A DNA stretch of 64,000 nt from assembly GCA_012735495.1 (NCBI GenBank), contig JAAYHD010000021.1, positions 1 through 64,000 on the forward strand, given 5' to 3'. The stretch is from Clostridiales bacterium. Lineage in GTDB: Bacteria > Bacillota > Clostridia > Lachnospirales > Lachnospiraceae. A program made the translations under genes and the position numbers. Under the pieces are notes generated by a model. It was not told the origin of the DNA. It searched no databases and saw only the letters and a list, made by a program, of their open reading frames with translations. This document shows, piece after piece, positions 5,003 to 27,632 of this stretch (the first letter of the stretch is position 1; each line of letters starts with the position of its first letter).

Positions 5003-5617
5003 GTGGGAGTTGATTTCAAAAACAGTCGGACAAAGGACAATCTTATGAGGGCCTTTGCCGGGGAGAGCCAGGCAAGAAACAGGTATACATTTGCCGCGTC
5101 CCAAGCAAGGAAGGAGCATCATCATGTGATTGAAGCGATATTCAGGTTCACTGCCGACCAGGAGAAGGAGCACGCGGAGATCTTTTACGGGCACCTTAAA
5201 GAGCTTGCCGGTGAGAATATACATGTGGACGGGTCATATCCGGTTGATATATCAAAGGATATAACGGACCTTCTTCGCAGTGCGCAGCACAACGAATATG
5301 AGGAATATGATCCTATATACAAGAGCTTTGGAGACATAGCGAAAGAAGAGGGTTTTGACAGGGTTGCGGCATCATTCCACATGATTTCAAAAATTGAAAA
5401 AATCCATGGAGACCGTTTCGGAAAGTTCGCAAAGCTCATGGAGGAGGATAAGCTCTACGAGTCGGAAGTTGAAACCGGCTGGATGTGCTTAAACTGCGGG
5501 CACGTCCATTGGGGAACGGAAGCACCGAAGGAATGCCCCGTCTGTCACCATGACAGGGGGTATTTCATAAGGCTTGAGCTTGCGCCATTTCATACAATGA
5601 ATTTATCCGACGAGTAA
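5003..5617 (+). CDS. rbr: Rubrerythrin
   Basis: Ferritin-like ExxH di-iron motifs and C-terminal rubredoxin-like CxxC pairs (MCLNCGHVHWGTEAPKECPVCHH). Confidence 0.95.
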   Translation: MGVDFKNSRTKDNLMRAFAGESQARNRYTFAASQARKEHHHVIEAIFRFTADQEKEHAEIFYGHLKELAGENIHVDGSYPVDISKDITDLLRSAQHNEYEEYDPIYKSFGDIAKEEGFDRVAASFHMISKIEKIHGDRFGKFAKLMEEDKLYESEVETGWMCLNCGHVHWGTEAPKECPVCHHDRGYFIRLELAPFHTMNLSDE

Positions 5618-5626
5618 AAGGCCATC

Positions 5627-5656
5627 AACACCGGTGTTTCCTGCCGGTGTTTTTTC
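5627..5656 (+). terminator. Rho-independent terminator
   Basis: AACACCGG...CCGGTGTT then T-tract. Confidence 0.85.
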
Positions 5657-5689
5657 TTTCGCAGCTTTTTGAGCCTGCCATACTTTATT

Positions 5690-5705
5690 TGTGATTTATG
5701 TCACG
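5690..5705. promoter_or_regulatory. Candidate Crp/Fnr-family operator
   Basis: TGTGA-TTTATG-TCACG, a 5-6-5 dyad resembling the classical CRP consensus, ~105 nt upstream of the DUF1858 gene. Confidence 0.5.
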
Positions 5706-5808
5706 GTAATAATAATTTTAATAAATTATATTTTACATAAGGAATCGGCAGGAAATCGTAATTGCATGTTGCGCGGTTTCATAATATCATGAATTTGGAG
5801 GATATATT

Positions 5809-6039
5809 TTGGCAGGAAAAGCTATTGATTTAAATAAAAGCGTATATGATTTATGCAATGAGCATAAGGAGCTTCCGCAGCTTCTGCACGATCTTGGATT
5901 TGTGGACATAATCAAGCCGGGTATGCTGCATACGGCGGGAAGGTTTATGACTTTAAAGAAGGGCGCGGCTTTTAAGAAGGTCAGCCTGGACTTAATAAAG
6001 GAAACCCTCGCGGTGAACGGATACGAAATTATAGACTAG
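5809..6039 (+). CDS. DUF1858 domain protein
   Basis: IDLNKSVYDLCNEHKELPQLLHDLGFVDIIKPGMLHTAGRFMTLKKGAAFKKVSLDLI; TTG start behind TTGGAGG. Confidence 0.85.
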   Translation: MAGKAIDLNKSVYDLCNEHKELPQLLHDLGFVDIIKPGMLHTAGRFMTLKKGAAFKKVSLDLIKETLAVNGYEIID

Positions 6040-6069
6040 AGCATATTAACATATATGTTTTTAAATAAC

Positions 6070-6096
6070 GAAACCTTGATGCATCATCAAGGTTTC
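6070..6096 (+). other. Perfect 12-bp intercistronic hairpin
   Basis: GAAACCTTGATG-CAT-CATCAAGGTTTC between DUF1858 gene and gnd. Confidence 0.8.
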
Positions 6097-6118
6097 TTGT
6101 AAATAAGGAGGTAATCGG

Positions 6119-7534
6119 ATGGCAAAACAAAATGTTGGTCTTATCGGGCTTGCGGTGATGGGAAAGAACCTGGCATTAAACATTGCAGACCACGGGTATT
6201 CGGTATCCGTGTATAACCGTTCAAGGGAAAAAACGGACAGCCTCTTGGACGAAGCAAGGGATAAGAGCATAATTGGGACTTATTCATTGGATGAGTTCGT
6301 TAATTCGTTGGAAAAGCCGAGAAAGATCATTCTTATGGTCAAAGCCGGAAAGGCTGTGGATGAAATGATTGAGCAGCTTCTTCCGCTGCTTGAGCCGGGG
6401 GATTTGCTTATGGACGGTGGCAATTCCAATTACCTTGATACCATTGAAAGAAGCAAACGGCTTGAAGAACACAATATTCTCTATCTTGGCACCGGCATAT
6501 CCGGCGGAGAGGAGGGTGCGCGGTTCGGCCCCGCAATCATGCCCGGCGGAAGCCATGAGGCATATAAAATGATGGAGAACCTTCTTAAGGATGTGTCGGC
6601 CAAGGTTGACGGCGACCCGTGCTGCACATATATCGGTAAAAACGGTGCCGGGCATTTTGTCAAAATGGTCCACAACGGCATAGAATATGCCGACATGCAG
6701 CTTATTGCCGAAGCATATTCAATACTAAAGCAGGTTCTTGGGCTTTCACCTTCGGATTTTCATGAGATATTTGCCGAGTGGAACAGGGGAGAGCTAAACA
6801 GCTATCTGATTGAGATAACCGCGGATATCTTCACCAAGAAGGATATTGAAACAGGCAATTACCTGGTTGACATGATTTTGGATGTGGCGGGACAGAAAGG
6901 CACGGGAAAGTGGACGGGACAGATTTCCCTCGAGCTTGGAGTGCCTGCCCCGACCATTGCCGCAGCCGTTTATGAAAGATACATTTCAACCATGAAGGAG
7001 GATAGGGTGGCTGCAAGCAGGACTCTTGCAGGACACGGCAAGCTCCCCAAGGCTTCATATTCAAAGGAGGAAGCTAATAAATTCATTGAATCCGTAAGAA
7101 GGGCGCTTTATGCCAGCAAGATATGTGCATATGCCCAGGGCTTCGGACTTATGCGCGCTGCCGACATGCAGTACGAATGGGGGCTTAATCTGGGTGATAT
7201 CGCAAGGATCTTCCGGGGCGGGTGTATTATCCGCGCGCAATTCCTCAATAAGATCATGGAAGCATACGCCCGAAAGAAGGATCTGGTCAATCTACTTTTG
7301 GCGGATTACTTCAAGGATGCGGTCAGCGCCTACCAGGAGGACTGGAGAGACGTTGTCGCCACCGCCATTTACCACGGCATTCCTACACCTGCGTTCATGA
7401 GTGCCCTGGCCTACTACGACAGCTACAGAAGCGCAGAGCTTCCGATGAACTTGATTCAGGCCCAGAGGGATTATTTTGGGGCTCATACCTACATGCGCAA
7501 GGATAAGGAAGGAGTGTTCCATACAAATTGGTAA
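6119..7534 (+). CDS. gnd: 6-phosphogluconate dehydrogenase, decarboxylating
   Basis: [57 protein letters not shown]. Confidence 0.97.
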
Positions 7535-7590
7535 AATGACGTAATTTAGTCGCCATAAATATATTATGTAAACAGAAAGGGGGTCCGGAT

Positions 7591-9069
7591 ATGATTGATA
7601 TGTCTGCAATACTTGTGATATTCGGAGGAACGGGCGATTTAACCCACAGAAAGCTGATGCCCGCCCTTTATAACATGCTCCTGGACGGTATCGTACCTGA
7701 GCACTTCAGGGTGGTGTCAATAGGAAGAAGGGATAAGACCGTTGACGAGTATAGGAATGAAATACGGGCATCCATTGATAGATACTCAAGAAACAAGGTT
7801 GATGAAAATATATGGTCGAAGCTTTGCGGCATGATATCATACTACAGGTTCGATTTTAGGGATTTTGAAGGATATCCGAAGCTGAAGGCTTACCTGGATA
7901 ATCTGGACAAAGAGGCAGATACCAAGGGGAACAGGATATATTACATGGCTGTTGCTCCCGAGTATTTTGAGACAATCGTTCATGGTCTGCACATTGCGGG
8001 AATGGCAAGGCAGGAGGGCTCATGGAGCAGGCTGGTGATTGAAAAGCCGTTCGGAAAGGACCTTAAGACCGCAAGGCATCTTAACCAGAAACTGCTCGAG
8101 GTATTTGACGAAAAGAGCATATACAGGATTGACCATTATCTTGGAAAAGAAATGATTCAGAACATAATGGTTCTCCGGTTCACCAACTCAATATTTGAAT
8201 CCATATGGAACAACAAGTTCATTGACAACATCCAGATTTCCCTTACGGAGAAGCTCGGTGTCGGGACCAGGGGAAATTATTATGAGAACTCCGGCGCCAT
8301 GCGTGACATGGTACAAAGCCACATCATGCAGATACTATCGCTTGTGGCAATGGAGCCTCCTGTTAACCTAAAGACCGATTCCATCCGTACCGAGAAGCTC
8401 AAGGTGCTTGAGGCAATTGAAGATATTACGCCCGAGTTTCTTAGGGAAAATGTAGTATTCGGCCAATACGGGAGGGGGTTCATAGACGGGGTTCCCGTCG
8501 TGGGATACAGGGAGGAAGCAAATATCCCGAAGGATTCGAATACTGAGACCTTCGTCGCGTTAAAGCTTCATATAAACAACTTCCGTTGGGCGGGAACGCC
8601 ATTCTATATCAGGACGGGAAAAAGGCTCGGTACATACGGTGCCGAGATTGTGATACAGTTCAAGGATTTGCCGAACATCCTTTATTTCAGCGACGGACAC
8701 ATTCAGGAGCCGAATCTTCTGGTAATAAGGATACAGCCAAATGTCGGCGTGTTCTTCCAGTTCAACACCAAGGATTTTACCTCCCACCACGGCATCGTGC
8801 CCACCAAGATGGACACCAGCTATGAGAATCCCAGCCAGGGAAATACCCCTGAAGCATATGAAAGGCTGATTTATGACATATTAAGAGGGGATTCAACCCT
8901 CTTCTCCAGGTGGGATGAGGTGGAAGCGTCATGGACCATAGCGGACAGGATTATTAAATACAGGGAGCAGGGAAACGTGAAGTTCCCGAATTATGACGCG
9001 GGCTCCATGGGGCCTGTCAGATCCTTTGAGCTTCTTGCCAGGGACGGCAGGAAATGGTGGAACATATAA
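7591..9069 (+). CDS. zwf: Glucose-6-phosphate 1-dehydrogenase
   Basis: IFGGTGDLTHRKLMPALYNM, RIDHYLGKE, IRTGKRL. Confidence 0.97.
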   Translation: MIDMSAILVIFGGTGDLTHRKLMPALYNMLLDGIVPEHFRVVSIGRRDKTVDEYRNEIRASIDRYSRNKVDENIWSKLCGMISYYRFDFRDFEGYPKLKAYLDNLDKEADTKGNRIYYMAVAPEYFETIVHGLHIAGMARQEGSWSRLVIEKPFGKDLKTARHLNQKLLEVFDEKSIYRIDHYLGKEMIQNIMVLRFTNSIFESIWNNKFIDNIQISLTEKLGVGTRGNYYENSGAMRDMVQSHIMQILSLVAMEPPVNLKTDSIRTEKLKVLEAIEDITPEFLRENVVFGQYGRGFIDGVPVVGYREEANIPKDSNTETFVALKLHINNFRWAGTPFYIRTGKRLGTYGAEIVIQFKDLPNILYFSDGHIQEPNLLVIRIQPNVGVFFQFNTKDFTSHHGIVPTKMDTSYENPSQGNTPEAYERLIYDILRGDSTLFSRWDEVEASWTIADRIIKYREQGNVKFPNYDAGSMGPVRSFELLARDGRKWWNI

Positions 9070-9085
9070 AGGGGAGGGTTACAAA

Positions 9086-9730
9086 ATGATAATCAATACG
9101 GATAAAATGCAAATACATGACATTTCAATGCCCATAACAAAGGCAATGCCGGTTTACAAGGGCAAGGACTTTAAAAAGCCGGTCATTACCATAGACAGCG
9201 ATTTTTCCACCGGTACCGCTTATGAAACCAGGCTGGAGATGAACCTTCACACAGGGACCCATCTTGATACACCAAAGCACATGATCCCTTCCGGCTATAC
9301 CATGGAGGAAATGATGCTGTCCAGGGTGGTAACCGCCTGCAAGGTATTTGACCTGACCGGTGTAAAGGAAAAAATAACAGAAAAGGACCTTGTAAACCTG
9401 GATATAGGGGAAGGGGATTTCATCCTTCTAAAGACCAGGAATTCATATGAAAACATACTTGAAAACGACTTCGTGTATGTAAGCATGGATGCGGCGGATT
9501 ATCTCGCGAGACGGAAGGTAAAAGGCGTAGGAATAGACGCCTTGGGGATAGAAAGAAGCCAGCCGGGCCATGAGACCCATAAGATATTATTTGATGCGGA
9601 TATCGTTATTCTTGAAGGGATTGTGCTTAAGGACATTGAAGAAGGGGAGTATTTCCTTCATGCCGCTCCGATCAGCATACCCGGAGCGGAAGCGGCGCCG
9701 GTAAGGGCTTATCTTATTAGACAGCTGTAG
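9086..9730 (+). CDS. Cyclase family protein (kynurenine formamidase-like)
   Basis: HxGTHxDxPxH motif LHTGTHLDTPKHM; likely start ATG 9086 behind GGGGAGGG rather than ORF-track 8993. Confidence 0.88.
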   Translation: MIINTDKMQIHDISMPITKAMPVYKGKDFKKPVITIDSDFSTGTAYETRLEMNLHTGTHLDTPKHMIPSGYTMEEMMLSRVVTACKVFDLTGVKEKITEKDLVNLDIGEGDFILLKTRNSYENILENDFVYVSMDAADYLARRKVKGVGIDALGIERSQPGHETHKILFDADIVILEGIVLKDIEEGEYFLHAAPISIPGAEAAPVRAYLIRQL

Positions 9731-9792
9731 AATACCCCAAATTCCTTATGTATGCACAGAACGTAAATAAATATGATTAAAGGAGGAAAGAC

Positions 9793-11079
9793 ATGAGCGA
9801 ATACATCAATAACAGGGAATACAGGCAAAAAGTGTTAAAGGAGCTTATAATGGAGCTTCATAATGGGAAAACTGTTGATGAGGTCAAGGAGAGGTTTGAA
9901 AAGCTTATTGAAGGTGTTTCGGCCGCCGAGATCTCAATGATGGAAAACCAGCTTATCAGGGAAGGGCTGCCGGTATCGGAGGTTCAAAGGCTGTGCGATG
10001 TCCATGCCGCGGTATTCAAGGGCTCAATTGAGGAGATTCATATGCCCGACAATCCTGCCGAGATACCGGGACATCCTGTCCATACATTCAAGATGGAAAA
10101 CAGGGCACTTGAGCGCCATATGGAAAAGAGCATCAAGCCTGTTTTAAATGAACTTAAGCAAACTGACAGCCCCGGGCTTCGCAAAAAACTCATGGAGGAA
10201 TACACTAAGCTGTACGAAGTGGACAAGCATTATCTTAGAAAAGAAAACCTTCTTTTCCCGTTCCTTGAGAAATATGGAATCACCGCGCCTCCGAAGGTTA
10301 TGTGGGGCGTTGATGACGAAATCAGGGAGGACATTAAGAACGTGCTTGCCATGCTCAGGGATGATGAAAGCAAGGCAGAAGTACTTGTAGAAAAAGCCGA
10401 GGCCGCCATGGGCAGGGTCAGCGAAATGATTTTCAAGGAGGAAAACATTCTGTTCCCTATGGCAATGGATACGCTGAACGAAGATGAATGGATGAAGATT
10501 GCAAGAGAAAGCTCCGAGCTTGGATACTGCCTGTATGAGCCGAAGAAGGAATGGAAACCGGCCAGGGTAAATGTTGAGGAAAAAACAAAAATGGAAAGCA
10601 CGAAAGATTCGGAAACAGAAGCTAAGGAACCTGCCGGTGACGACCGTGCCTGGGGCACACAGGAAAACGGCGGCGGTTACATTGCCTTTGAAACCGGTGT
10701 TCTTTCGCAGAGGGAACTGGAAGCCATGCTTAATACGCTGCCCGTTGATATCACATTTGTAGATAAGGACGGTATTGTAAAGTACTTCTCTCAGGGTACC
10801 GAAAGGATATTCCCAAGAACAAAGGCTGTTATCGGAAGAACCGTAACGAACTGCCATCCTCCGGCCAGCGTTCATATCGTTGAGAAGATCGTGGAAGACC
10901 TGAAATCCGGCAAAAAGGATCACGAGGATTTCTGGATAAAGATGAAAGGCATGTATGTCCTTATTCGATATTTTGCCGTAAGGGATAGGAACGGAGAGTT
11001 TGTGGGAGTCCTTGAGTTCACCCAGAACATTGCGCCGTTAAAGGAAATAGAGGGAGAAAAAAGACTATTGTCCGAGTAA
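9793..11079 (+). CDS. DUF438 + hemerythrin-like + PAS domain protein
   Basis: N-terminal DUF438 pattern, His/Glu-rich hemerythrin-like region (HPVHTFKMENRALERHMEK, HYLRKENLLFPFLEKYG, EENILFPM), PAS (LNTLPVDITFVDKDGIVKYFSQGTERIFPRTKAVIGR). Confidence 0.88.
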   Translation: MSEYINNREYRQKVLKELIMELHNGKTVDEVKERFEKLIEGVSAAEISMMENQLIREGLPVSEVQRLCDVHAAVFKGSIEEIHMPDNPAEIPGHPVHTFKMENRALERHMEKSIKPVLNELKQTDSPGLRKKLMEEYTKLYEVDKHYLRKENLLFPFLEKYGITAPPKVMWGVDDEIREDIKNVLAMLRDDESKAEVLVEKAEAAMGRVSEMIFKEENILFPMAMDTLNEDEWMKIARESSELGYCLYEPKKEWKPARVNVEEKTKMESTKDSETEAKEPAGDDRAWGTQENGGGYIAFETGVLSQRELEAMLNTLPVDITFVDKDGIVKYFSQGTERIFPRTKAVIGRTVTNCHPPASVHIVEKIVEDLKSGKKDHEDFWIKMKGMYVLIRYFAVRDRNGEFVGVLEFTQNIAPLKEIEGEKRLLSE

Positions 11080-18409: not shown

Positions 18410-19135
18410 TTATTCGAAAATGTCAACTTTGTATTTTTTATGATACTTAAAATATACGTTAATATCGTCCTTGGCCGGGTCATATGTGGCCAGAATAACT
18501 TCACGGATGTCCGAGGCTTTCTTTTGTTTAAGCTTATTTTTGAGCCATTCTTCATCCTTTCCGAAGAATTTAAGATTGCCTTTCATTATTTTGCCGTCGA
18601 TTATTATGTTTGCTAAGGGAGTTGCCTGAATGGGTGAAATGTTGATGTCTTCCGGCGTAACCGGCCTTGTGGCTGACATGGGAAGCACGCTTATTTTGCC
18701 GTTGCTTTCCAGGATGATGGTGTGGATGTCTTCAAGGTTGTAGTAACCTTTTACCCGGCATTCCGCCAGCAGCTCACCTATGTCAAGCTTTGCATAAAGG
18801 AGGTTCTTTTCGAATATCTGTCCCTGTTGATAAAGAAGGAGCGGCTGGCCCTGGAAAAAACGTCTCAGGATGATTGATTTGCAGGTCAGGTAATTTATAC
18901 TCATGGTTAATAAAGAAAGGATGGTCATTGACAGCAGGGGCTCAATAAGGTTATCCGTGGACATTGCCGCCATTTCCCCGGCGATGGAGCCTATTGCGAT
19001 ACTGCTGATATAATCGAACATGCTAAGCTGCGCCATTTCCCTGTTGCCCATCAGCTTTGTCAGTATAAAGAGCGCACTAAGGGATACCAAAGATGAAACA
19101 AAAACCTTGCCAAGTTCCATACCTGTCAACCTCAT
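18410..19135 (-). CDS. DUF421 (YetF/YcaP-like) membrane protein
   Basis: LFILTKLMGNREMAQLSMFDYISSIAIGSIAGEMA, CKSIILRRFFQGQPLLLYQQGQI. Confidence 0.9.
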   Translation of the reverse strand: MRLTGMELGKVFVSSLVSLSALFILTKLMGNREMAQLSMFDYISSIAIGSIAGEMAAMSTDNLIEPLLSMTILSLLTMSINYLTCKSIILRRFFQGQPLLLYQQGQIFEKNLLYAKLDIGELLAECRVKGYYNLEDIHTIILESNGKISVLPMSATRPVTPEDINISPIQATPLANIIIDGKIMKGNLKFFGKDEEWLKNKLKQKKASDIREVILATYDPAKDDINVYFKYHKKYKVDIFE

Positions 19136-19280
19136 TCAAATCAGATTTTACCGTATTAATATGGTTGACAGTTTTATGAAAAATATTAATGCCGTGCAAT
19201 TTGTATAACCGGAGAATAATTTGCCTGAAATAAACCATAATAATTTTGATAAATATTCCGGATCCCGAAAGGAGATGCGT

Positions 19281-19472
19281 ATGAAAGCGTATGTTGACCA
19301 GGAAGGCTGCATAAGCTGCGGCCTTTGCGTGGATGTTTGCCCCGAAGTGTTCAGCTTTAATGAGGAGGGCTTATCCCAGCCGATAGAAGGAGATATTCCA
19401 AAGGATTGCATGGAAAGAGCCCGTGAGGCAAGAGACGGCTGTCCCACGGATGTTATTTCCCTTGAGGAATAG
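19281..19472 (+). CDS. Ferredoxin
   Basis: CISCGLCVDVCPEVF...GCPTDVI; AAAGGAG RBS before ATG 19281. Confidence 0.92.
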   Translation: MKAYVDQEGCISCGLCVDVCPEVFSFNEEGLSQPIEGDIPKDCMERAREARDGCPTDVISLEE

Positions 19473-19479
19473 AAGGGAT

Positions 19480-20418
19480 TTATCGGTTTGCCTGTTCAAA
19501 TGGCCGGGTTCGGTCATGAAGCCAACCGGCTGCTATATAATCCTCTATCCGTACCGGGCCTTCAAGAACCTCCCTGCCAACAAAAAGGGTCCTGTCAGGC
19601 CTTGTCATTACCGCCCATTTGATTAATGCCAGGCTTCCGTTTACAATTTCGATGCCGGTTATACACCTGGGATGGACGCAGCTGCCGTCATTGAAATACA
19701 GGTTTTCACCCGGCTGGGGAAACAGAGGCCTGTGGGTATGGCCTGTAATGATCATCTTGTTGTTTTTCACCGACCAATCGGCCAGCCTTCTTTCAACCTT
19801 GCTCTTCCTATCATTATTTTTAGCCGCGCTGGTCGGGTCCCGGATGCCGATCAGTTCAAGAGGCCTCCACAGGTAGCGCACCAGGAATCTTGACAGGCGC
19901 CAGAAGGTATCGTTAAGTATGTCGGCCTGGTGGCCGTGGGTAAGGAATATCTGGTACGGTATGGGGGTATAGTCCAGGATCAGGCCCTCGTGTATGACTA
20001 TGCCTGGAAACAGCGGAAGATAAGAGTTGATGCTGTCACAGAAGAAAGAGTGGCAATTTGTCCTGGAATACTTCGGGTCCTTTTTGACAATATCATGGTT
20101 GCCGTACAGCATGTAGAACCTGCCTTCCTTGTAAAACTGCGACATGAGCCAAAATGCGTCGCTGTGGCTGCTTATTATGGAATTGATGTCCCTGTTTTCC
20201 CACAGCTCGTCACCGTCACCCAACTCGATATAGGTAAAGCCCCTTTCAAAATAATACAGCAGGGCGGCAAAAAAGATATTCTGGTTATTTGAAAAATTAT
20301 CGGAATAACTTGCATCACCCCTGTGGCAGTCGCTCATAATAATGAATCTTGAGTAATCGTCGAAGGGAATCCTTATGGACGAGGAAAACACCTGGGATAA
20401 ACGGGAGTTTATGCTCAT
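19480..20418 (-). CDS. Metallophosphoesterase
   Basis: IMSDCHRGD, LGDGDELWE, YGNHD, LTHGHQAD, TGHTHRP motifs. Confidence 0.93.
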   Translation of the reverse strand: MSINSRLSQVFSSSIRIPFDDYSRFIIMSDCHRGDASYSDNFSNNQNIFFAALLYYFERGFTYIELGDGDELWENRDINSIISSHSDAFWLMSQFYKEGRFYMLYGNHDIVKKDPKYSRTNCHSFFCDSINSYLPLFPGIVIHEGLILDYTPIPYQIFLTHGHQADILNDTFWRLSRFLVRYLWRPLELIGIRDPTSAAKNNDRKSKVERRLADWSVKNNKMIITGHTHRPLFPQPGENLYFNDGSCVHPRCITGIEIVNGSLALIKWAVMTRPDRTLFVGREVLEGPVRIEDYIAAGWLHDRTRPFEQANR

Positions 20419-20422
20419 GATA

Positions 20423-21481
20423 TCATTCCCCCGTATCCGTTTTGCTCAAATTAAGAAAACCCTTTATTTCGTGGAATATTTCAAAAACAGAGTAAGGTTT
20501 GCCCATGTTCAATATCCTATTGTACAGGCTCGGGTATTCCGCCTTAATCATTGCGAGCTTTTCGGCCGTATTGCCGTATGCCTGTGTAAGGGAATTATAA
20601 GCGTCGCACCAGGTCTGATTGTTGCGCTGCATCATATAAATTGATACGGGATTGCGTGTAATGGGCTGCTTCGTATGCGGCTTGTCGAAATGGACGTAAA
20701 CCCGTCTTCCCCGTACGGCATATTCGCTTTCCGTGTAACCCGCCTCCCGCAGGCCGTTTACAAAAGCATCGACCATCTGCTTGTCATTAAGATCCAGGAC
20801 GATATCCATCTCAAGCTCGGAAGGATATGAAAACTCACCCAGCCTAAAGCCTGTAATCCACCAATGGTAATCGCTTCTTGTAAACAGGATTTTGCCGTTC
20901 TTTTTAAAGATAAAGGACATGTTTATACGGTCCTCGTCTTTTACACAGAAGTAGAAGGTGCCGTTGAACAAGCCGGGGATGTTCAGGTCGGGCCCCGATG
21001 TATAGTAAATACCGACTTCTCCGCCGGTTGTCATTCCGTACTGTCCCTTCCAGAATTCGATCATCCACCTTTTGCCGTTGTAATTGAAATATATCGGTTC
21101 ACAGTCGATTATCATGCTGAAAGCGGCGCAAGCCTCGTCATAAAGCCTGAAATACCCGAAGCTTCTCTGCCAGCAGTCCATAAGTGAATAGAAGATATCC
21201 TGAATGTGGTCGTATGCAAAGCCAAAGGGTTTAAGATCCCTGTTCAATGCATCTATAAGCTCCTGCTTGTTTCCGAGAATGTCGGAAACCGGTGGGATGG
21301 GTTTTTTAAGCTTTTCTTTTTTTCTTTTCTTTTTAATCCGAACTCTTATACATATGGCGGTTAACAAAAACAAAAGAAGCAGACCTGTTATTACAAGAGC
21401 CTTGTGATCTATATATAAGCTCCACAGAAATGAAGCGTTTATAATATAAACATTAATAACTGCAGATAATATAACATGCAT
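20423..21481 (-). CDS. DUF4474-like membrane-anchored protein
   Basis: FGFAYDHIQDIFYSLMDCWQRSFGYFRLYDEACAAFSMIIDCEPIYFNYNGKRWMIEFWKGQYGMTTGGEVGIY. Confidence 0.75.
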   Translation of the reverse strand: MHVILSAVINVYIINASFLWSLYIDHKALVITGLLLLFLLTAICIRVRIKKKRKKEKLKKPIPPVSDILGNKQELIDALNRDLKPFGFAYDHIQDIFYSLMDCWQRSFGYFRLYDEACAAFSMIIDCEPIYFNYNGKRWMIEFWKGQYGMTTGGEVGIYYTSGPDLNIPGLFNGTFYFCVKDEDRINMSFIFKKNGKILFTRSDYHWWITGFRLGEFSYPSELEMDIVLDLNDKQMVDAFVNGLREAGYTESEYAVRGRRVYVHFDKPHTKQPITRNPVSIYMMQRNNQTWCDAYNSLTQAYGNTAEKLAMIKAEYPSLYNRILNMGKPYSVFEIFHEIKGFLNLSKTDTGE

Positions 21482-21635: not shown

Positions 21636-21664
21636 TTGACATATGAAGATTGACATATTATGAT
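21636..21664 (+). promoter_or_regulatory. Sigma-A-like promoter for the Rnf-like locus
   Basis: TTGACA - 17 nt - TATGAT. Confidence 0.75.
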
Positions 21665-21709
21665 TATTTAGGTATATGTAATTGTAAACTTATAGCAGGA
21701 GGGCCAGTT

Positions 21710-23044
21710 TTGAGACATTATTTTCATGGTGGTATACATCCGTCCGACGGTACCGATAAAAGGCTGAGCAATCAAAAGCCTATTCGGGTATATACCCCAC
21801 AGGTTGTTGAGGTTTCCATGAAACAGTCCCCCGGCGGCTTTTGTGATGCCGTTGTAAATGTGGGAGACAAGGTTGCAAAAGGCGATCTGATCGGGAAACC
21901 CGTATCCTTCAGCGGAGCAAACATTCATGCAGGTATCAGCGGAACGGTTACCGAAATCAGAATAGATCAGGATGCTTACGGCAGGGAAGTAAAAACGGTG
22001 GTTATACAGGCTGACGGCACAGGCAATGAAAAAAAAGACTCCGTATGCGAATACGAGGAAAAGATTATCGACCTGTCCGGTTATGCCAGGGAAGATATTA
22101 TAGCCAATATGAAGGAAGGCGGCATAATCGGTCTTGGCGGCGCGGGATTTCCTGCGCATATCAAGTATGAGACAAAGGAAAAAATCAAATATATTCTTGT
22201 TAATGCTGCAGAATGCGAGCCATATCTGACCTGTGACCATATGCTTGTTATGGAGCATGGGTATGCCGTTATTAACGGGGTACTGCTGTTGGTCAAAGCA
22301 TCAGGTGCCGATAAGGCTATTATTTGTTTTGAGGATAACAAGAAAGACGCGGCCGGACATTTGCAAGATATTATTTCCAATACGGAGCTGCCGGTGGAAA
22401 TAAAAATTCTTCCTACAAAGTATCCACTGGGCGGAGAACGGCAGCTGGTTGAAGCGGTGCTTCATATGGAGGTTCCGGCCGGGAAGCTGCCGGCAAGCAT
22501 AGGTGTCATTATTAATAATGTTGGTACGGCAAAAGCCGTTGCCGATATGGTTATCGGGGGCAATCCCCTGACATCCAGGGTTGTTACCGTTACAGGCAAG
22601 GTAAGGGAACCCGGCAACTACCTGGTGCCCATAGGCACGAGGTTTACCGAGTTAATCAATCTTTCAGGCGGATTTACTGCAGAAAACTGCAGGGTAATTG
22701 AAGGAGGCCCGATGACAGGCCATTGCCTGCAGATAGGCGGTACGCATGAAGAACTAATGGGAAGCGTGGCAAAAACCACCTCGGCGATAGTGGTTCTCGA
22801 GGATACATCGAAGGTGGAGACGCCTTGTATCCGATGCGGTGAATGCGAAAGAGTATGCCCAGCGGGGCTGGCTCCGTTTAAAATTGATTTTGCCGCGATT
22901 GAAGACGATATTGACTTGTGCAGAAGGCTTTACGCAACGGAATGTATCAGCTGCGGCTGCTGTTCATATGTATGCCCGGCAAAAAGGGAGCTGGCATACA
23001 GGATAACGGAAGCCAAGACGGAGATACTCAGGCATAAGGCTTAA
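21710..23044 (+). CDS. rnfC: Electron transport complex subunit RnfC
   Basis: IGLGGAGFPAHIKYET.., NAAECEPYLTCDHMLV, two CxxCxxCxxxCP clusters; likely start TTG 21710 behind AGGAGGG. Confidence 0.93.
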   Translation: MRHYFHGGIHPSDGTDKRLSNQKPIRVYTPQVVEVSMKQSPGGFCDAVVNVGDKVAKGDLIGKPVSFSGANIHAGISGTVTEIRIDQDAYGREVKTVVIQADGTGNEKKDSVCEYEEKIIDLSGYAREDIIANMKEGGIIGLGGAGFPAHIKYETKEKIKYILVNAAECEPYLTCDHMLVMEHGYAVINGVLLLVKASGADKAIICFEDNKKDAAGHLQDIISNTELPVEIKILPTKYPLGGERQLVEAVLHMEVPAGKLPASIGVIINNVGTAKAVADMVIGGNPLTSRVVTVTGKVREPGNYLVPIGTRFTELINLSGGFTAENCRVIEGGPMTGHCLQIGGTHEELMGSVAKTTSAIVVLEDTSKVETPCIRCGECERVCPAGLAPFKIDFAAIEDDIDLCRRLYATECISCGCCSYVCPAKRELAYRITEAKTEILRHKA

Positions 23045-23063
23045 GTACGATTGGAGGAAGCGG

Positions 23064-24038
23064 ATGAAGCTTAAAACTGGTAAGGAATTACATGAGGTCA
23101 GTCCGCATATAGTGGATGACAGATCTACAAAGGTTATTATGCAGGATGTTGTCATCGCGATGATACCTGCTTTGCTTGGCGCGATATATTTCTTTGGTAT
23201 CAACGCCCTGATACTTACTGCAAGCAGTGTGGCAACCTGTGTTTTATCGGAGTACATCTGGCAGAGGCTTAGAAAAGAGCCGTTGACGGTGGGAGACTGG
23301 AGTGCCGTTGTAACCGGCATGCTTATTGCGTTTAATGTACCGGCCACCACTCCCATATGGGCTGTCATGATTGCATCGGTGTTTGCGATTATTGTGGTAA
23401 AGCAGTTCTTCGGCGGAATAGGAAGCAACTTTGCAAATCCCGCGCTGATGGGAAGAGCGCTTTTAATGTTCCTGTGGCCTGCTTCGGTATCAAGCTATGT
23501 TACGACATATCATTCCGGTGTTGATGCTGTAAGCTCTGCAACAGTTCTGGGACTGTATAAGTCCGGCTCGGATTTAAGCAGATTTTCAAAGTGGGATATG
23601 TTTATCGGCAACATACCGGGCTGCCTGGGTGAGACGAGCGCGCTGCTTTTACTGATTGGGTTTGCTTACCTGTGCTACAGAAAGGTTGTCAACCTGGCTG
23701 CAACCGGAGCATACATTATAACGGTACTTGCAATGACATTCGTTTTTGCCCGGGATGGGCTGTTTAAAGGCGACATACTTACAAACCTGCTTTCTGGAGG
23801 ACTGATACTGGGCGCATGCTTTATGATGACCGACTATGCATCGGTGGCTCCCAGGGTCAAGGTTGTACTGTCAATCATAGCCGGCCTGGTAACGGCGGGC
23901 ATAAGGCTGTGGGGAATGCTGCCCGAAGGCGTGAGCTATGGAATTCTGACGGCAAATTGCCTGTCGGGACTTGTTGAAACGGTAATCAGACCTCACATAT
24001 ACGGTGTAGGGCTGAAAAAGCAAAAAAGCAAGATTTAG
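23064..24038 (+). CDS. rnfD: Electron transport complex subunit RnfD
   Basis: SPHIVDDRSTKVIMQDVVIAMIPALLGAIYFFG, flavinylation-like DAVSSATVLG, MTDYASVAPR. Confidence 0.92.
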   Translation: MKLKTGKELHEVSPHIVDDRSTKVIMQDVVIAMIPALLGAIYFFGINALILTASSVATCVLSEYIWQRLRKEPLTVGDWSAVVTGMLIAFNVPATTPIWAVMIASVFAIIVVKQFFGGIGSNFANPALMGRALLMFLWPASVSSYVTTYHSGVDAVSSATVLGLYKSGSDLSRFSKWDMFIGNIPGCLGETSALLLLIGFAYLCYRKVVNLAATGAYIITVLAMTFVFARDGLFKGDILTNLLSGGLILGACFMMTDYASVAPRVKVVLSIIAGLVTAGIRLWGMLPEGVSYGILTANCLSGLVETVIRPHIYGVGLKKQKSKI

Positions 24039-24075
24039 ATTTAATTTTAATAAATAAAGAAAAGAGGAATTGGTC

Positions 24076-24597
24076 ATGAAGGATAGCAGATTAAGAGGAA
24101 TAATTGCATTAGCGGTTGTAACAATTGTTGCGTTTGGTGTAATTTACGGAAGCAGAATACTGGTAAAGGATGAAAATGGCGGCGCCGATAACGGAGGCAA
24201 GGTTGAGGAAGAGCTTCCGGGAGCGATAGATGTACAGGGAGCAGAAGGAATAATATCAGCCAGAGAGATAACCGATGACAGCGGCAATGTCACCGCATAC
24301 TCTGTTGTTGCCAAGGCAAAGGGCTTTGCGCCTCCTACCAATCCTGTCACATGGGAGATTATATTTGAACCTGACGCAAAGACCATCCGGGAAGTTAAGA
24401 TTGTCAGCCATGGTGAGACTGAAGGATATGGAGCAAAAATGGAGGAAGAAAGCTATCTTGCGCAGTTTAAGGGAATGTCAGCGGAAAACGGCAGCGAGAT
24501 CGATGCCATTTCAGGCGCTACCATGACTACGGAAGCAATCAGAAAGCTTGTCAGCAACGCATATAATTTCATCAGCAATTATGCAGCGAATAAATAG
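24076..24597 (+). CDS. rnfG: Electron transport complex subunit RnfG (FMN-binding domain)
   Basis: Single N-terminal TM, HGETEGYGAKMEEESYLAQFKG, flavinylation motif DAISGATMTTEAI. Confidence 0.9.
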   Translation: MKDSRLRGIIALAVVTIVAFGVIYGSRILVKDENGGADNGGKVEEELPGAIDVQGAEGIISAREITDDSGNVTAYSVVAKAKGFAPPTNPVTWEIIFEPDAKTIREVKIVSHGETEGYGAKMEEESYLAQFKGMSAENGSEIDAISGATMTTEAIRKLVSNAYNFISNYAANK

Positions 24598-24618
24598 CAT
24601 TCGGAAAGGAAAGGGTCT

Positions 24619-25395
24619 ATGAAGGCTAAATACCCTATAGAAGCATTTGCACTGGCAATGGTGGTATTTTCACAGAATATGAGAAATGCCCTGGTAACAG
24701 GTATTCTTATATTGCTGATTGCCACTTTGGGACTTGTGCTGGACCATATATTCGGGGATATGATTCCAAGGTGGAGCAGGGTTTCCTGCAGTATAATCCT
24801 GATGACGGCCGTCACATATTCATTATTCCAGGTCGTACTGCTGGCGGTGCTGGGATTTGAGATACAGCAATCGGACGCCATTTTCCATATATTCTTAGGC
24901 ATCCTGATAGCCAAACATATTATTGACATGGATGGTGAACAGGATTACAACAGGCTTTTGCTTGAGGACGCCGGAGCGTACGCCGTACTGCTTGTCATAT
25001 CGATTATAAGGGAATTCATGGCCGGCGGTGCCGTATTCGGATATAAAATTGCGGAATTCAGCCTTAGGTCCGGCAGCTTTTCAAATGTAATTATGGGGTT
25101 TATACTGGCGGGTATTGGGCTTGCCGTGCTTAACGGAATATTCAGGAGCGGCACAAACACGGGTGCGGTGGATGGCTTCCTTGTAGTCTTTCCTGTTGTG
25201 CTGGAGATTCAGCCTTTCATCATAGACAGCATCGGTGAAGCCGCCAGTGTGGCAATAACGGCGGCAATAGCCTTGGTATTGTTCTATTCCGTTAAGAGAT
25301 ACCTGATTTTTTCGAAATTGGGCAAGGGAATAAAAAATCTGCCGGTGGATTTGGTTTCAATGGGGTTTATTTATATGATCCTTTCAATGTTTTAG
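24619..25395 (+). CDS. Divergent Rnf-Nqr (RnfA/RnfE-like) membrane protein
   Basis: 258 aa polytopic; ISIIREFMAGGAVFG matches the RnfE/A xIRExxGxGxxFG motif, C-terminal KLGKGIKNLPVDLVSMGFIYMILSMF matches the family end; only one Cys. Confidence 0.75.
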   Translation: MKAKYPIEAFALAMVVFSQNMRNALVTGILILLIATLGLVLDHIFGDMIPRWSRVSCSIILMTAVTYSLFQVVLLAVLGFEIQQSDAIFHIFLGILIAKHIIDMDGEQDYNRLLLEDAGAYAVLLVISIIREFMAGGAVFGYKIAEFSLRSGSFSNVIMGFILAGIGLAVLNGIFRSGTNTGAVDGFLVVFPVVLEIQPFIIDSIGEAASVAITAAIALVLFYSVKRYLIFSKLGKGIKNLPVDLVSMGFIYMILSMF

Positions 25396-25443
25396 CCGGA
25401 TTATCGGCAGAAGCATATGAATCACTATCAAGATCATAATTCG

Positions 25444-25492
25444 GAGCAGGTGTGCAAATCATTAATCCGGACACTGCTCCTTATTATTATAA
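25444..25492 (+). terminator. Possible terminator/attenuator between Rnf-like genes and NusG_II gene
   Basis: GGAGCAGgTGT...ACACTGCTCC followed by TTATTATTAT. Confidence 0.45.
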
Positions 25493-25502
25493 GGTATGAA
25501 GT

Positions 25503-25868
25503 ATGAAGAAGAATGATATTTTCTTAATATGCGGCATTATATTCATAATTGCGTGCAGCTTTCTTTTGGTTTTTGCGTTCCGGTCGGAAGGAAGCCGCGT
25601 GCTTGTTGTGGTGGATAAAGAGGTGTACAAGGAATTCGACCTGAATGAAAACACTACATATGAAATTCGGCAGGAAAACGGGGAACGCAATGTAATAGAA
25701 ATTAAAGACGGATATGTAAGGATGACCGAGGCGAGTTGTCCTGACAAGCTGTGTGTAAAGCAGGGGTGGATCCGCTATAATTACGAGTCCATTACATGCC
25801 TGCCAAACAAGGTGTATGTCCGTATATCCGGCGGCGAGGAAGGCGAATTGGATGCCGTGGCGGAATAA
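25503..25868 (+). CDS. NusG domain II-containing membrane-anchored protein
   Basis: One N-terminal TM and CPDKLCVKQGWIRYNYESITCLPNKVYVRI. Confidence 0.9.
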   Translation: MKKNDIFLICGIIFIIACSFLLVFAFRSEGSRVLVVVDKEVYKEFDLNENTTYEIRQENGERNVIEIKDGYVRMTEASCPDKLCVKQGWIRYNYESITCLPNKVYVRISGGEEGELDAVAE

Positions 25869-25894
25869 CAAGTTATAAAACTTAAGGAGTAAAA

Positions 25895-26398
25895 ATGAAA
25901 CCTAAAAGAATTGCCTTATACGGTTTGTTTATAGCGCTTGCGTTTATATTCAGTTATATAGAAAGCCTGATTCCAATTCCTTTTCCCGTTCCGGGAGTAA
26001 AGCTTGGACTGGCAAACCTTGTGGTCGTAGTCGCCATGTATGGTATGGGCGTAAAGGAAGCGTTCGTATTGTCCATTGTCCGTATCCTGCTGGTGGGATT
26101 TACGTTCCGCGACCCGTCAACGATGATATTCAGCCTGGCGGGAGGATTATTAAGCTGGCTTATGATGGCAGTCTTTAAGAAGCTTAAGCTTTTCAGCATG
26201 GTGGGAGTCAGCATAATCGGAGGAATATCCCATAACATCGGACAGATTATTGTGGCTATCCTGTATGTCAATAATACAAGCATCATATATTACCTGCCGT
26301 TTTTGATGGTTTCAGGACTGGTGAGCGGAACACTAATCGGCTTGCTTGCGGGGCTTGTATTGAAAAGACTGCAGAAATTCTTTTTATATGAGAAGTAG
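25895..26398 (+). CDS. Gx transporter family protein (heptaprenyl diphosphate synthase component I-like)
   Basis: IALYGLFIALAFIFSYIESLIPIPFPVPGVKLGLANLVVVVAMYGMG. Confidence 0.92.
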   Translation: MKPKRIALYGLFIALAFIFSYIESLIPIPFPVPGVKLGLANLVVVVAMYGMGVKEAFVLSIVRILLVGFTFRDPSTMIFSLAGGLLSWLMMAVFKKLKLFSMVGVSIIGGISHNIGQIIVAILYVNNTSIIYYLPFLMVSGLVSGTLIGLLAGLVLKRLQKFFLYEK

Positions 26399-26435: not shown

Positions 26436-27632
26436 GTGAACTATTACGAGGAGAGTTTAAAGCTTCATGAGAAGTACAGGGGCAAGATTGAAGTAAAATC
26501 AAAGGTAAGCGTAAACACCAGGGAAGACCTGAGCATAGCCTATACTCCTGGTGTTGCCGAGCCGTGCAGGATGATTGCCAAAAATGAGGATGATGTATAC
26601 AGATATACTTCCAAAGGCAATTTGATTGCTGTGGTGACAGACGGTTCCGCAGTGCTTGGCTTGGGCAATATCGGTCCCAAGGCGGCGCTTCCGGTTATGG
26701 AAGGCAAGGCAATACTGTTCAAGGAATTCGCGGATGTGGATGCGATTCCGGTCTGTATCGACTCACAGGACGTCGATACCATAGTAAATACCGTTAAGCT
26801 AATTTCACCTGCCCTAGGAGGAATAAACCTTGAGGATATTTCTGCTCCAAGGTGCTTTGAAATCGAGGAAAAGCTAAAAAGCCAACTGGATATTCCGGTG
26901 TTTCACGACGACCAGCATGGTACTGCGGTTGTGGTCCTGGCCGGTATAATTAATGCCCTCAAGCTGACAGGCAAAAAGCTTGAGGATGTTACGGCCGTTA
27001 TTAACGGTCCGGGAGCTGCGGGTATAGCCATAGCCAAACTGCTTCTTAAAGCCGGAATCAAAGATATAATTCTGTGCAACAGGAGAGGAATTCTTGATAA
27101 GGAAGACAATCAGTTGGATCCGGTAAGGAAGGAAATGGCCATTACAACGAATAAAACCAATAAAAAGGGACTGCTTAAAGATGCCATGGCCGGCGCCGAC
27201 ATATTCATCGGTGTTTCCTCTCCGGACGTTGTAACCACCGAAATGGTGGAAAGCATGAACGAAAACGCCATTGTATTTGCCATGGCAAATCCCGTACCAG
27301 AGATCATGCCTGAGGCTGCGAAAGCCGGCGGCGCCAGGGTGATTGGAACCGGAAGATCGGATTTTCCGAACCAGATTAATAATGTTCTTGCATTTCCCGG
27401 CATATTCAGGGGAGCACTGGATGTAAGGGCCAGGGAAATCAACGAGGAAATGAAGCTGGCTGCCGCGTATGCAATAGCCGGATTGATAAAGGACGGGGAA
27501 TTAAGAGAAGATTATATAATTCCAAGCGCCTTGGACAAGAAGGTGGCTGCCGAGGTGGCACGGGCGGTCGCGGATGCCGCCATCAGGACAGGAGCAGCCG
27601 CAGTCCGGTCTCCTTCGCAGCTTGACTTATAA
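26436..27632 (+). CDS. NAD(P)-dependent malic enzyme
   Basis: SIAYTPGVAEPCRMI, VVTDGSAVLGLGNIGPKAALPVMEGKA, FHDDQHGTAVV. Confidence 0.96.
   Translation: MNYYEESLKLHEKYRGKIEVKSKVSVNTREDLSIAYTPGVAEPCRMIAKNEDDVYRYTSKGNLIAVVTDGSAVLGLGNIGPKAALPVMEGKAILFKEFADVDAIPVCIDSQDVDTIVNTVKLISPALGGINLEDISAPRCFEIEEKLKSQLDIPVFHDDQHGTAVVVLAGIINALKLTGKKLEDVTAVINGPGAAGIAIAKLLLKAGIKDIILCNRRGILDKEDNQLDPVRKEMAITTNKTNKKGLLKDAMAGADIFIGVSSPDVVTTEMVESMNENAIVFAMANPVPEIMPEAAKAGGARVIGTGRSDFPNQINNVLAFPGIFRGALDVRAREINEEMKLAAAYAIAGLIKDGELREDYIIPSALDKKVAAEVARAVADAAIRTGAAAVRSPSQLDL

Follow-up and report, generated by a model that had tools for sequence, protein, structure and literature searches.

The window studied here is a stretch of 64,000 nucleotides from a Clostridiales bacterium of the Lachnospiraceae, a gut-type anaerobe (GenBank assembly GCA_012735495.1, contig JAAYHD010000021.1, positions 1 to 64,000). 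At 21710-26398 it carries six open reading frames (ORFs), rnfC-rnfD-rnfG-X-NusG_II-Gx, which are intact, collinear, and followed by a gene for malic enzyme (Table 1). Pfam and NCBIfam assign every gene of this cassette except X, and neither an rnfB nor a second rnfA or rnfE lies 3' of X, where NusG_II, Gx, and malic enzyme come next. An earlier reading of this DNA made without database searches (the sequence-only reading) had described an atypical Rnf locus in which RnfC, RnfD, and RnfG are joined by one divergent RnfA/E-like protein and no RnfB, with NusG_II and Gx behind; the intact ORFs and the profiles agree with that description. We refer to the C-D-G-X genes as the module and to the window copies as RnfC2, RnfD2, and RnfG2.

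Table 1. Features of the module locus and its immediate surroundings
Feature	Position	Strand	Evidence
Sigma-70-like promoter TTGACA-17-TATGAT, 5' of rnfC2	21636..21664	+	11/12 consensus positions; match to consensus only
Ribosome-binding site AGGAGGG, preceding the TTG start of rnfC2	21697..21703	+	Read from sequence
rnfC2, NADH/FMN/2x[4Fe-4S] subunit, module-type	21710..23044	+	TIGR01945 4e-123
rnfD2, membrane flavin subunit, DAVSSAT	23064..24038	+	TIGR01946 2e-78
rnfG2, membrane-anchored FMN_bind protein, DAISGAT	24076..24597 (alternative start TTG 24070)	+	PF04205 1e-14
X, 258 aa, RnfE-like 1-181 plus RnfA C-terminal hairpin 182-258	24619..25395	+	Profiles, model
Hairpin between X and NusG_II	25443..25480	+	RNA fold -15.6 kcal/mol, z -2.4 vs shuffles
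NusG_II protein (PF07009)	25503..25868	+	Pfam 5e-32
Gx/EetB-type ECF-S subunit (PF07456)	25895..26398	+	Pfam 1e-42

Protein X combines an RnfE-like region with an RnfA-like tail

The X protein of the window had no Pfam match, PF02508 included, and its match to NqrD was weak (E = 0.17); the X proteins of two relatives exceeded the PF02508 cut-off, at 25.4 and 24.1 bits against 23.8. Using a profile built from an alignment of 22 X proteins, we made comparisons with RnfE and RnfA alignments from relatives. With hhalign, residues 20-181 of X aligned with RnfE (E = 4e-8) and residues 204-255 with the C terminus of RnfA (E = 4e-5). When X was split into two hidden Markov models, residues 1-181 matched 26/26 RnfE proteins (best, 32 bits) and scored RnfA at 7 bits or less, and residues 182-258 matched 24/25 RnfA proteins (best, 25 bits) and scored RnfE at 2 bits or less; other Rnf proteins reached at most about 4 bits. 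Genome scans gave the same split, with X from about 20 to 180 matching RnfE and from about 200 to 254 matching the neighboring RnfA. Against all PDB sequences, the X profile found RnfE 7zc6_E (5e-6), NqrD (1e-5), and, via residues 200-251, RnfA 9eri_A (8e-5), with the next match at 0.11.

An AlphaFold model of X (pLDDT 80) was compared with known structures by Foldseek, and the best folds were NqrD/RnfE, at probability 1.00 and TM(target) 0.52-0.60 with E-values of 0.09 or worse. Thus, of the checks on the product of 24619-25395, the PF02508 search came back empty and the structural comparison pointed to NqrD/RnfE at those E-values. By profile methods and modeled fold, X is assigned to the Rnf-Nqr superfamily. 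The sequence-only reading had allowed that X might prove to be a standard RnfE. This is ruled out by the missing PF02508 match in the window genome, the loss of the cluster cysteines described below, and the RnfA-type tail. X probably originated from an rnfE-rnfA fusion in which the first two thirds of RnfA were lost; because the canonical order is rnfE and then rnfA, an in-frame deletion that started at the end of rnfE and reached into rnfA would yield such a protein. A hydrophobic linker near residues 186-203 may be an extra membrane crossing that joins two subunits of opposite topology.

Cluster ligands are absent from X and cofactor sites are kept in RnfC, RnfD, and RnfG

In RnfA and RnfE, half-helix cysteines hold a membrane [2Fe-2S] cluster (PMC12174285). 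We compared 46 X proteins and their loci, a few of which are the same genome counted twice. X has LAMVV after an invariant Y-P where RnfE has LGMCPT after N-P, the CPT segment being missing, and the second RnfE motif, IVVNC, is replaced; both cysteine motifs are absent from 46/46 X proteins. The most conserved cysteine column reached 57% (C57), none lies at the ligand site, and across the 46 proteins no conserved Cys or His column offers a substitute metal ligand. H100 (63%) lies near the lost second cysteine and is not general. The pair R131-E132, the counterpart of the invariant R149-E150 of RnfE, is kept in all 46. In Acetobacterium woodii, mutation of the RnfA/E cluster cysteines abolished ferredoxin:NAD activity and autotrophic growth, and reduction of the cluster attracts Na+ and drives its uptake (PMC11889175).

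RnfC2 retains its FMN/NAD site and two 4Fe-4S motifs. Its closest solved relative is Clostridium tetanomorphum RnfC (7zc6_C), with which all eight cluster cysteines align, and both CxxCxxCxxxC motifs are present in 41/41 RnfC-like homologues over 400 amino acids. RnfD2 is a 324-residue protein with PF03116 only. Aligned to A. woodii RnfD (9eri_D), it has the threonine for flavin mononucleotide (FMN) at residue 160, within SSAT, and the riboflavin ligands N125 and D257; because SSAT occupies the TTAT position of the A. woodii protein, it is a normal flavinylation site. This threonine and the riboflavin Asn and Asp do not vary among 34 RnfD proteins of the module and 24 of canonical Rnf. RnfG2 scores under the TIGR01947 cut-off (43.7 versus 102 bits) and carries FMN_bind with its flavinylation motif.

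A complete canonical operon lies elsewhere in the genome

Searching the window genome for rnfA, rnfB, rnfE, and apbE returned a complete canonical rnfC-D-G-E-A-B operon on another contig (C12:1902-7203) and two apbE genes. The only two PF02508 matches of the genome are both inside this operon. The window locus is therefore a second, paralogous Rnf-type system and not the mark of a reduced genome, and a genome without canonical Rnf is ruled out. The sequence-only reading had held that rnfA and rnfB elsewhere in the genome, completing a canonical complex, would speak against it. They are indeed present, in an operon with a C, D, and G of its own, which therefore needs none of the window's. A one-contig genome (G007) also carries both systems, which excludes an assembly artefact as the source of the pair.

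The genome encodes three FMN_bind proteins, RnfG2 among them, and a single PF07456 protein, that of the window, which may serve every ApbE substrate of the genome. One further FMN_bind protein (L089; G000:C22:9182-9664) is small and membrane anchored, carries DVISGAT, lies about 3 kb from an apbE, and is a candidate RnfG partner.

Distribution and history of the module

X was found in 22/117 sampled near relatives (the window genome counted), as 8 strong matches among 392 order-level genomes, and in 25/397 sampled Lachnospiraceae genomes; at class scale, it was found in 0/390 further genomes, and beyond the family it is almost absent. C-D-G-X is a conserved cassette in Lachnospiraceae, including the isolate Herbinix hemicellulosilytica T3/55T (L030), and its order holds nearly throughout, the exceptions being loci L152 and L156. 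RnfD stands beside X in 45 of the 46 module loci and RnfC in 42, the remainder mostly ending at contig ends, and in 20/46 an apbE is located no more than 9 kb from X. The sequence-only reading had asked how far C-D-G-X-NusG_II-Gx is conserved across Clostridia. The first four genes keep together in nearly all module loci, and NusG_II-Gx follows the module mainly in Herbinix-type genomes and is missing from many distant module loci.

In an RnfD tree, the 34 module rows formed one clade (support, 100/100) on a long stem (branch 1.04). A recent local duplication is ruled out, since the module RnfD proteins fall in this single old clade even at loci where module genes lie next to canonical ones. 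Only one of 20 X-negative relatives had an RnfD of the module type, and its contig breaks off within rnfG. PF02508 was found in 20/21 X-positive genomes, and the exception has a canonical-type RnfC. Three further observations concern the Rnf genes of relatives: locus L069 (G152) has a very divergent RnfE/RnfA pair in which the cysteine motifs are kept and their surroundings are altered (MLCPLISL, EECPSVRV), genome G063 has further RnfC-like genes on other contigs, and the L156 module adjoins canonical D-G-E-A-B and an apbE.

Relatives carry reductase fusions in the RnfG position

The position between RnfD and X is variable. In the window it holds a single FMN_bind protein; in L153, it holds three tandem DVVSGA-type sites; and in L041, L042, and L045, it holds FMN_bind fused to a complete FAD_binding_2 fumarate-reductase domain. 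The L042 fusion matched flavocytochrome c3 fumarate reductase at 414 bits, with HPT, VRG, HHTMGG, and GNRLGGN conserved. These fusions indicate the direction of flow, in that electrons leave the cytosol. In ten other loci (L030, L033, L035, L038, and L076-L081), one or two FMN_bind-like domains are inserted into the FMN_bind domain of RnfG, and in these insertions the flavinylation motif has become D-x-V-(A/S)-G-V-S-I-S, a form that is conserved between genera. The inserted domains are possibly a noncovalent flavin site or an acceptor site.

Proposed electron path and alternative explanations

We propose, with a probability of roughly two in three, that the locus encodes a second, partial Rnf, which would have the NAD(H) arm without the ferredoxin arm and would export electrons one way from NADH. 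The proposal draws on gene content, homology, the loss and retention of residues, synteny, the single RnfD clade, and the reductase fusions of relatives; from these, we infer assembly into one complex, the direction of flow, the lack of pumping, and an acceptor in the window organism. Electrons would pass from NADH to the FMN and the two [4Fe-4S] clusters of RnfC, on to the riboflavin and covalent FMN of RnfD, and then to the covalent FMN of RnfG at the outer face and an extracytosolic acceptor. X would be a redox-silent stand-in that takes the place of the RnfA/RnfE pair next to RnfD and below RnfG. Without ligands for the membrane [2Fe-2S] cluster, X could not carry electrons from a ferredoxin-type donor, so that RnfB would be unneeded and transfer would be one way. 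Rather than pumping ions through RnfA/E, the complex would serve as an electron sink that regenerates NAD+. The EetB-type Gx protein, with NusG_II, probably exports flavin adenine dinucleotide (FAD) to ApbE for flavinylation of RnfG and RnfD, a role that fits the finding that EetB exports FAD for ApbE (PMC9973259). The same one-way logic was proposed for other partial systems by Meheust 2021 (PMC8238504). A ferredoxin-independent flavin module running from NADH to the outside had been suggested by the sequence-only reading, and it is the best-supported reading given the cysteines lost from every X, the cofactor residues kept in RnfC and RnfD, the fumarate-reductase fusions, and the recurrence of apbE nearby.

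Several observations weigh against this proposal. Foldseek gave X weak E-values, from 0.09 upward, and the confidence of its model is moderate. RnfG2 carries a single FMN domain without a fused reductase, and the locus contains no acceptor gene. In L152 (G1091, 7811-10427), an FMN_bind-fumarate reductase fusion is followed by X with neither RnfC nor RnfD in the locus, and L156 (G920, 5516-9987) reads C-D-X-NusG_II-Gx with no rnfG between D and X. Finally, every X-positive genome examined has canonical Rnf genes. This last point would suit a composite complex, in which module subunits join canonical RnfA/E/B in a branched Rnf that brings ferredoxin or NADH electrons to an alternative RnfG and an outside acceptor. 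We dropped the co-occurrence as a sign of dependence, since canonical Rnf is similarly common in X-negative relatives (17/20). A composite does gain from L075, L153, L154, and L156, where canonical D-G-E-A-B and then C-D-(G)-X stand in one run with a single RnfC between the halves and no canonical RnfC upstream in the stretches read; because of these four joined loci, a shared or coupled complex stays a rival. A multi-flavinylated RnfG with a second exit route has also been proposed (PMC8238504). Yet both sets of the window genome come with a C, D, and G of their own, and X would be a competitor at the RnfA/E position, not an addition to it; we regard a composite as unlikely.

It seems improbable to us that RnfD still links the electron flow of the module to Na+ or H+, which would make the module a true pump or, in reverse, a user of the gradient. 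Such coupling is in keeping with the invariant riboflavin ligands and FMN-threonine, with some Rnf/Nqr models, which put Na+ in RnfD/NqrB (PMC9588780, PMC12174285), and with two features of X, the acidic E116 (32/46), aligned near D130 of RnfE, and the invariant R131-E132. The mechanism measured in A. woodii, however, needs the RnfA/E (AE1) cluster that X cannot hold (PMC11889175), and outward flow from NADH would by our reasoning dissipate charge unless ions moved in compensation. It is more improbable still that X is an assembly or flavin-insertion factor for RnfD and RnfG of the module, flow then needing only C, D, and G. The lack of a conserved metal ligand and the tie of X to the RnfG position even without C-D in L152 are compatible with such a factor, but its RnfA/E homology and fold suggest a structural subunit, as does a C-D-G-X order that mirrors C-D-G-E-A. 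Decay of a duplicated canonical Rnf would explain an X without catalytic ligands and a locus without B; with intact ORFs, cofactor residues conserved in many genera, and one old module clade of stable synteny, we disfavor it as very improbable.

Comparison with known systems

Like canonical Rnf (RnfCDGEAB, a ferredoxin:NAD+ oxidoreductase), the module has RnfC, RnfD, and RnfG homologues with their cofactor sites, an X homologous to RnfE and RnfA, and a C-D-G-E/A gene order. Unlike it, the module has no RnfB, the rnfB of the genome sitting in the C12 operon; it has one protein without an Fe-S cluster, an apparent fusion, in place of an RnfA/RnfE pair with four cluster cysteines; its RnfD motif is SSATV rather than SGATP; and it coexists with a full canonical set. 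The unidirectional NQR/RNF-like systems (PMC8238504; PMC11334425) likewise have only the RnfD-type half with an extracytosolic FMN protein, and one-way flow from NAD(P)H to the outside was proposed for them. They differ in fusing NqrB/RnfD to an NqrF-type NAD domain (PF00175), which RnfD2 lacks, and occur mainly in Actinobacteria and the candidate phyla radiation, without RnfC or an RnfE-like subunit. The RNF clusters with multi-flavinylated RnfG (Meheust 2021) share extra FMN_bind-type domains with several module loci, but those clusters are canonical with RnfB. Flavocytochrome c fumarate and urocanate reductases (FccA, UrdA) resemble the fusions in L041, L042, L045, and L152, which join the catalytic domain to an FMN domain in the RnfG position; unlike FccA and UrdA, these fusions lack a haem domain, and three of the four are encoded directly within an RnfC-RnfD-X operon; the window has no such fusion.

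With the Gram-positive flavin-based extracellular electron transfer system of Listeria (Ndh2/PplA/FmnB/EetAB), the module shares FMN_bind proteins, ApbE, and an EetA/EetB-type NusG_II-Gx pair, in which the NusG_II protein, standing beside PF07456, is presumably the EetA-like partner of Gx. Module electrons would enter from RnfC/RnfD and not from Ndh2 and demethylmenaquinone; neither ndh2 nor pplA is found among the identified genes of the surrounding 18.4-31 kb, the stretch to which the search for ndh2 was confined. The sequence-only reading took NusG_II and Gx as a sign of extracellular electron transfer. The EetAB-type likeness stands, but as evidence it is weak: EetB (PF07456), an ECF-S subunit for FAD export, also occurs together with Rnf in 572 Clostridia genomes, deletion of eetA in Listeria had no phenotype (PMC9973259), and many of the distant module loci lack the pair. 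Gx of the window is itself predicted to be an FAD exporter.

Flanking features

The region of the rnfC2 promoter showed no overall enrichment of promoter matches compared with shuffles. The gap of 107 bases between X and NusG_II holds the hairpin, a possible attenuator. Malic enzyme (26436-27632), directly 3' of Gx, adjoins the module only here and in the closest relative (L005/L040) and was therefore dropped as a component of the system. Upstream, on the minus strand at 18410-21481, the window encodes a YetF-type DUF421 protein, a calcineurin-like phosphoesterase, and a DUF4474 protein; genes for the latter two are kept upstream of the module in 11 loci.

Significance

We found no published description of the C-D-G-X cassette in the literature searched, which covers few subscription journals. 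The Rnf complex is central to energy conservation in anaerobes, and the U-shaped path via RnfA/E, RnfG, and RnfD is under active study. A natural variant in which precisely the ferredoxin/[2Fe-2S] limb is gone and the NAD/flavin limb is kept amounts to an evolutionary experiment on the Rnf mechanism, and the module would serve as a test of whether RnfD alone moves ions. More tentatively, C-D-G-X may be a respiratory complex in its own right, belonging to the Lachnospiraceae and independent of quinones, in which RnfC/RnfD pass electrons from NADH to flavoprotein reductases outside the cytosol (in the fused forms, a fumarate reductase); it would have arisen by rnfE-rnfA fusion and [2Fe-2S] loss, which made a two-way pump into a one-way NADH:outside oxidoreductase. 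With the module, gut and biogas Lachnospiraceae would also have a way of respiring fumarate and other extracytosolic acceptors that needs neither quinones nor cytochromes.

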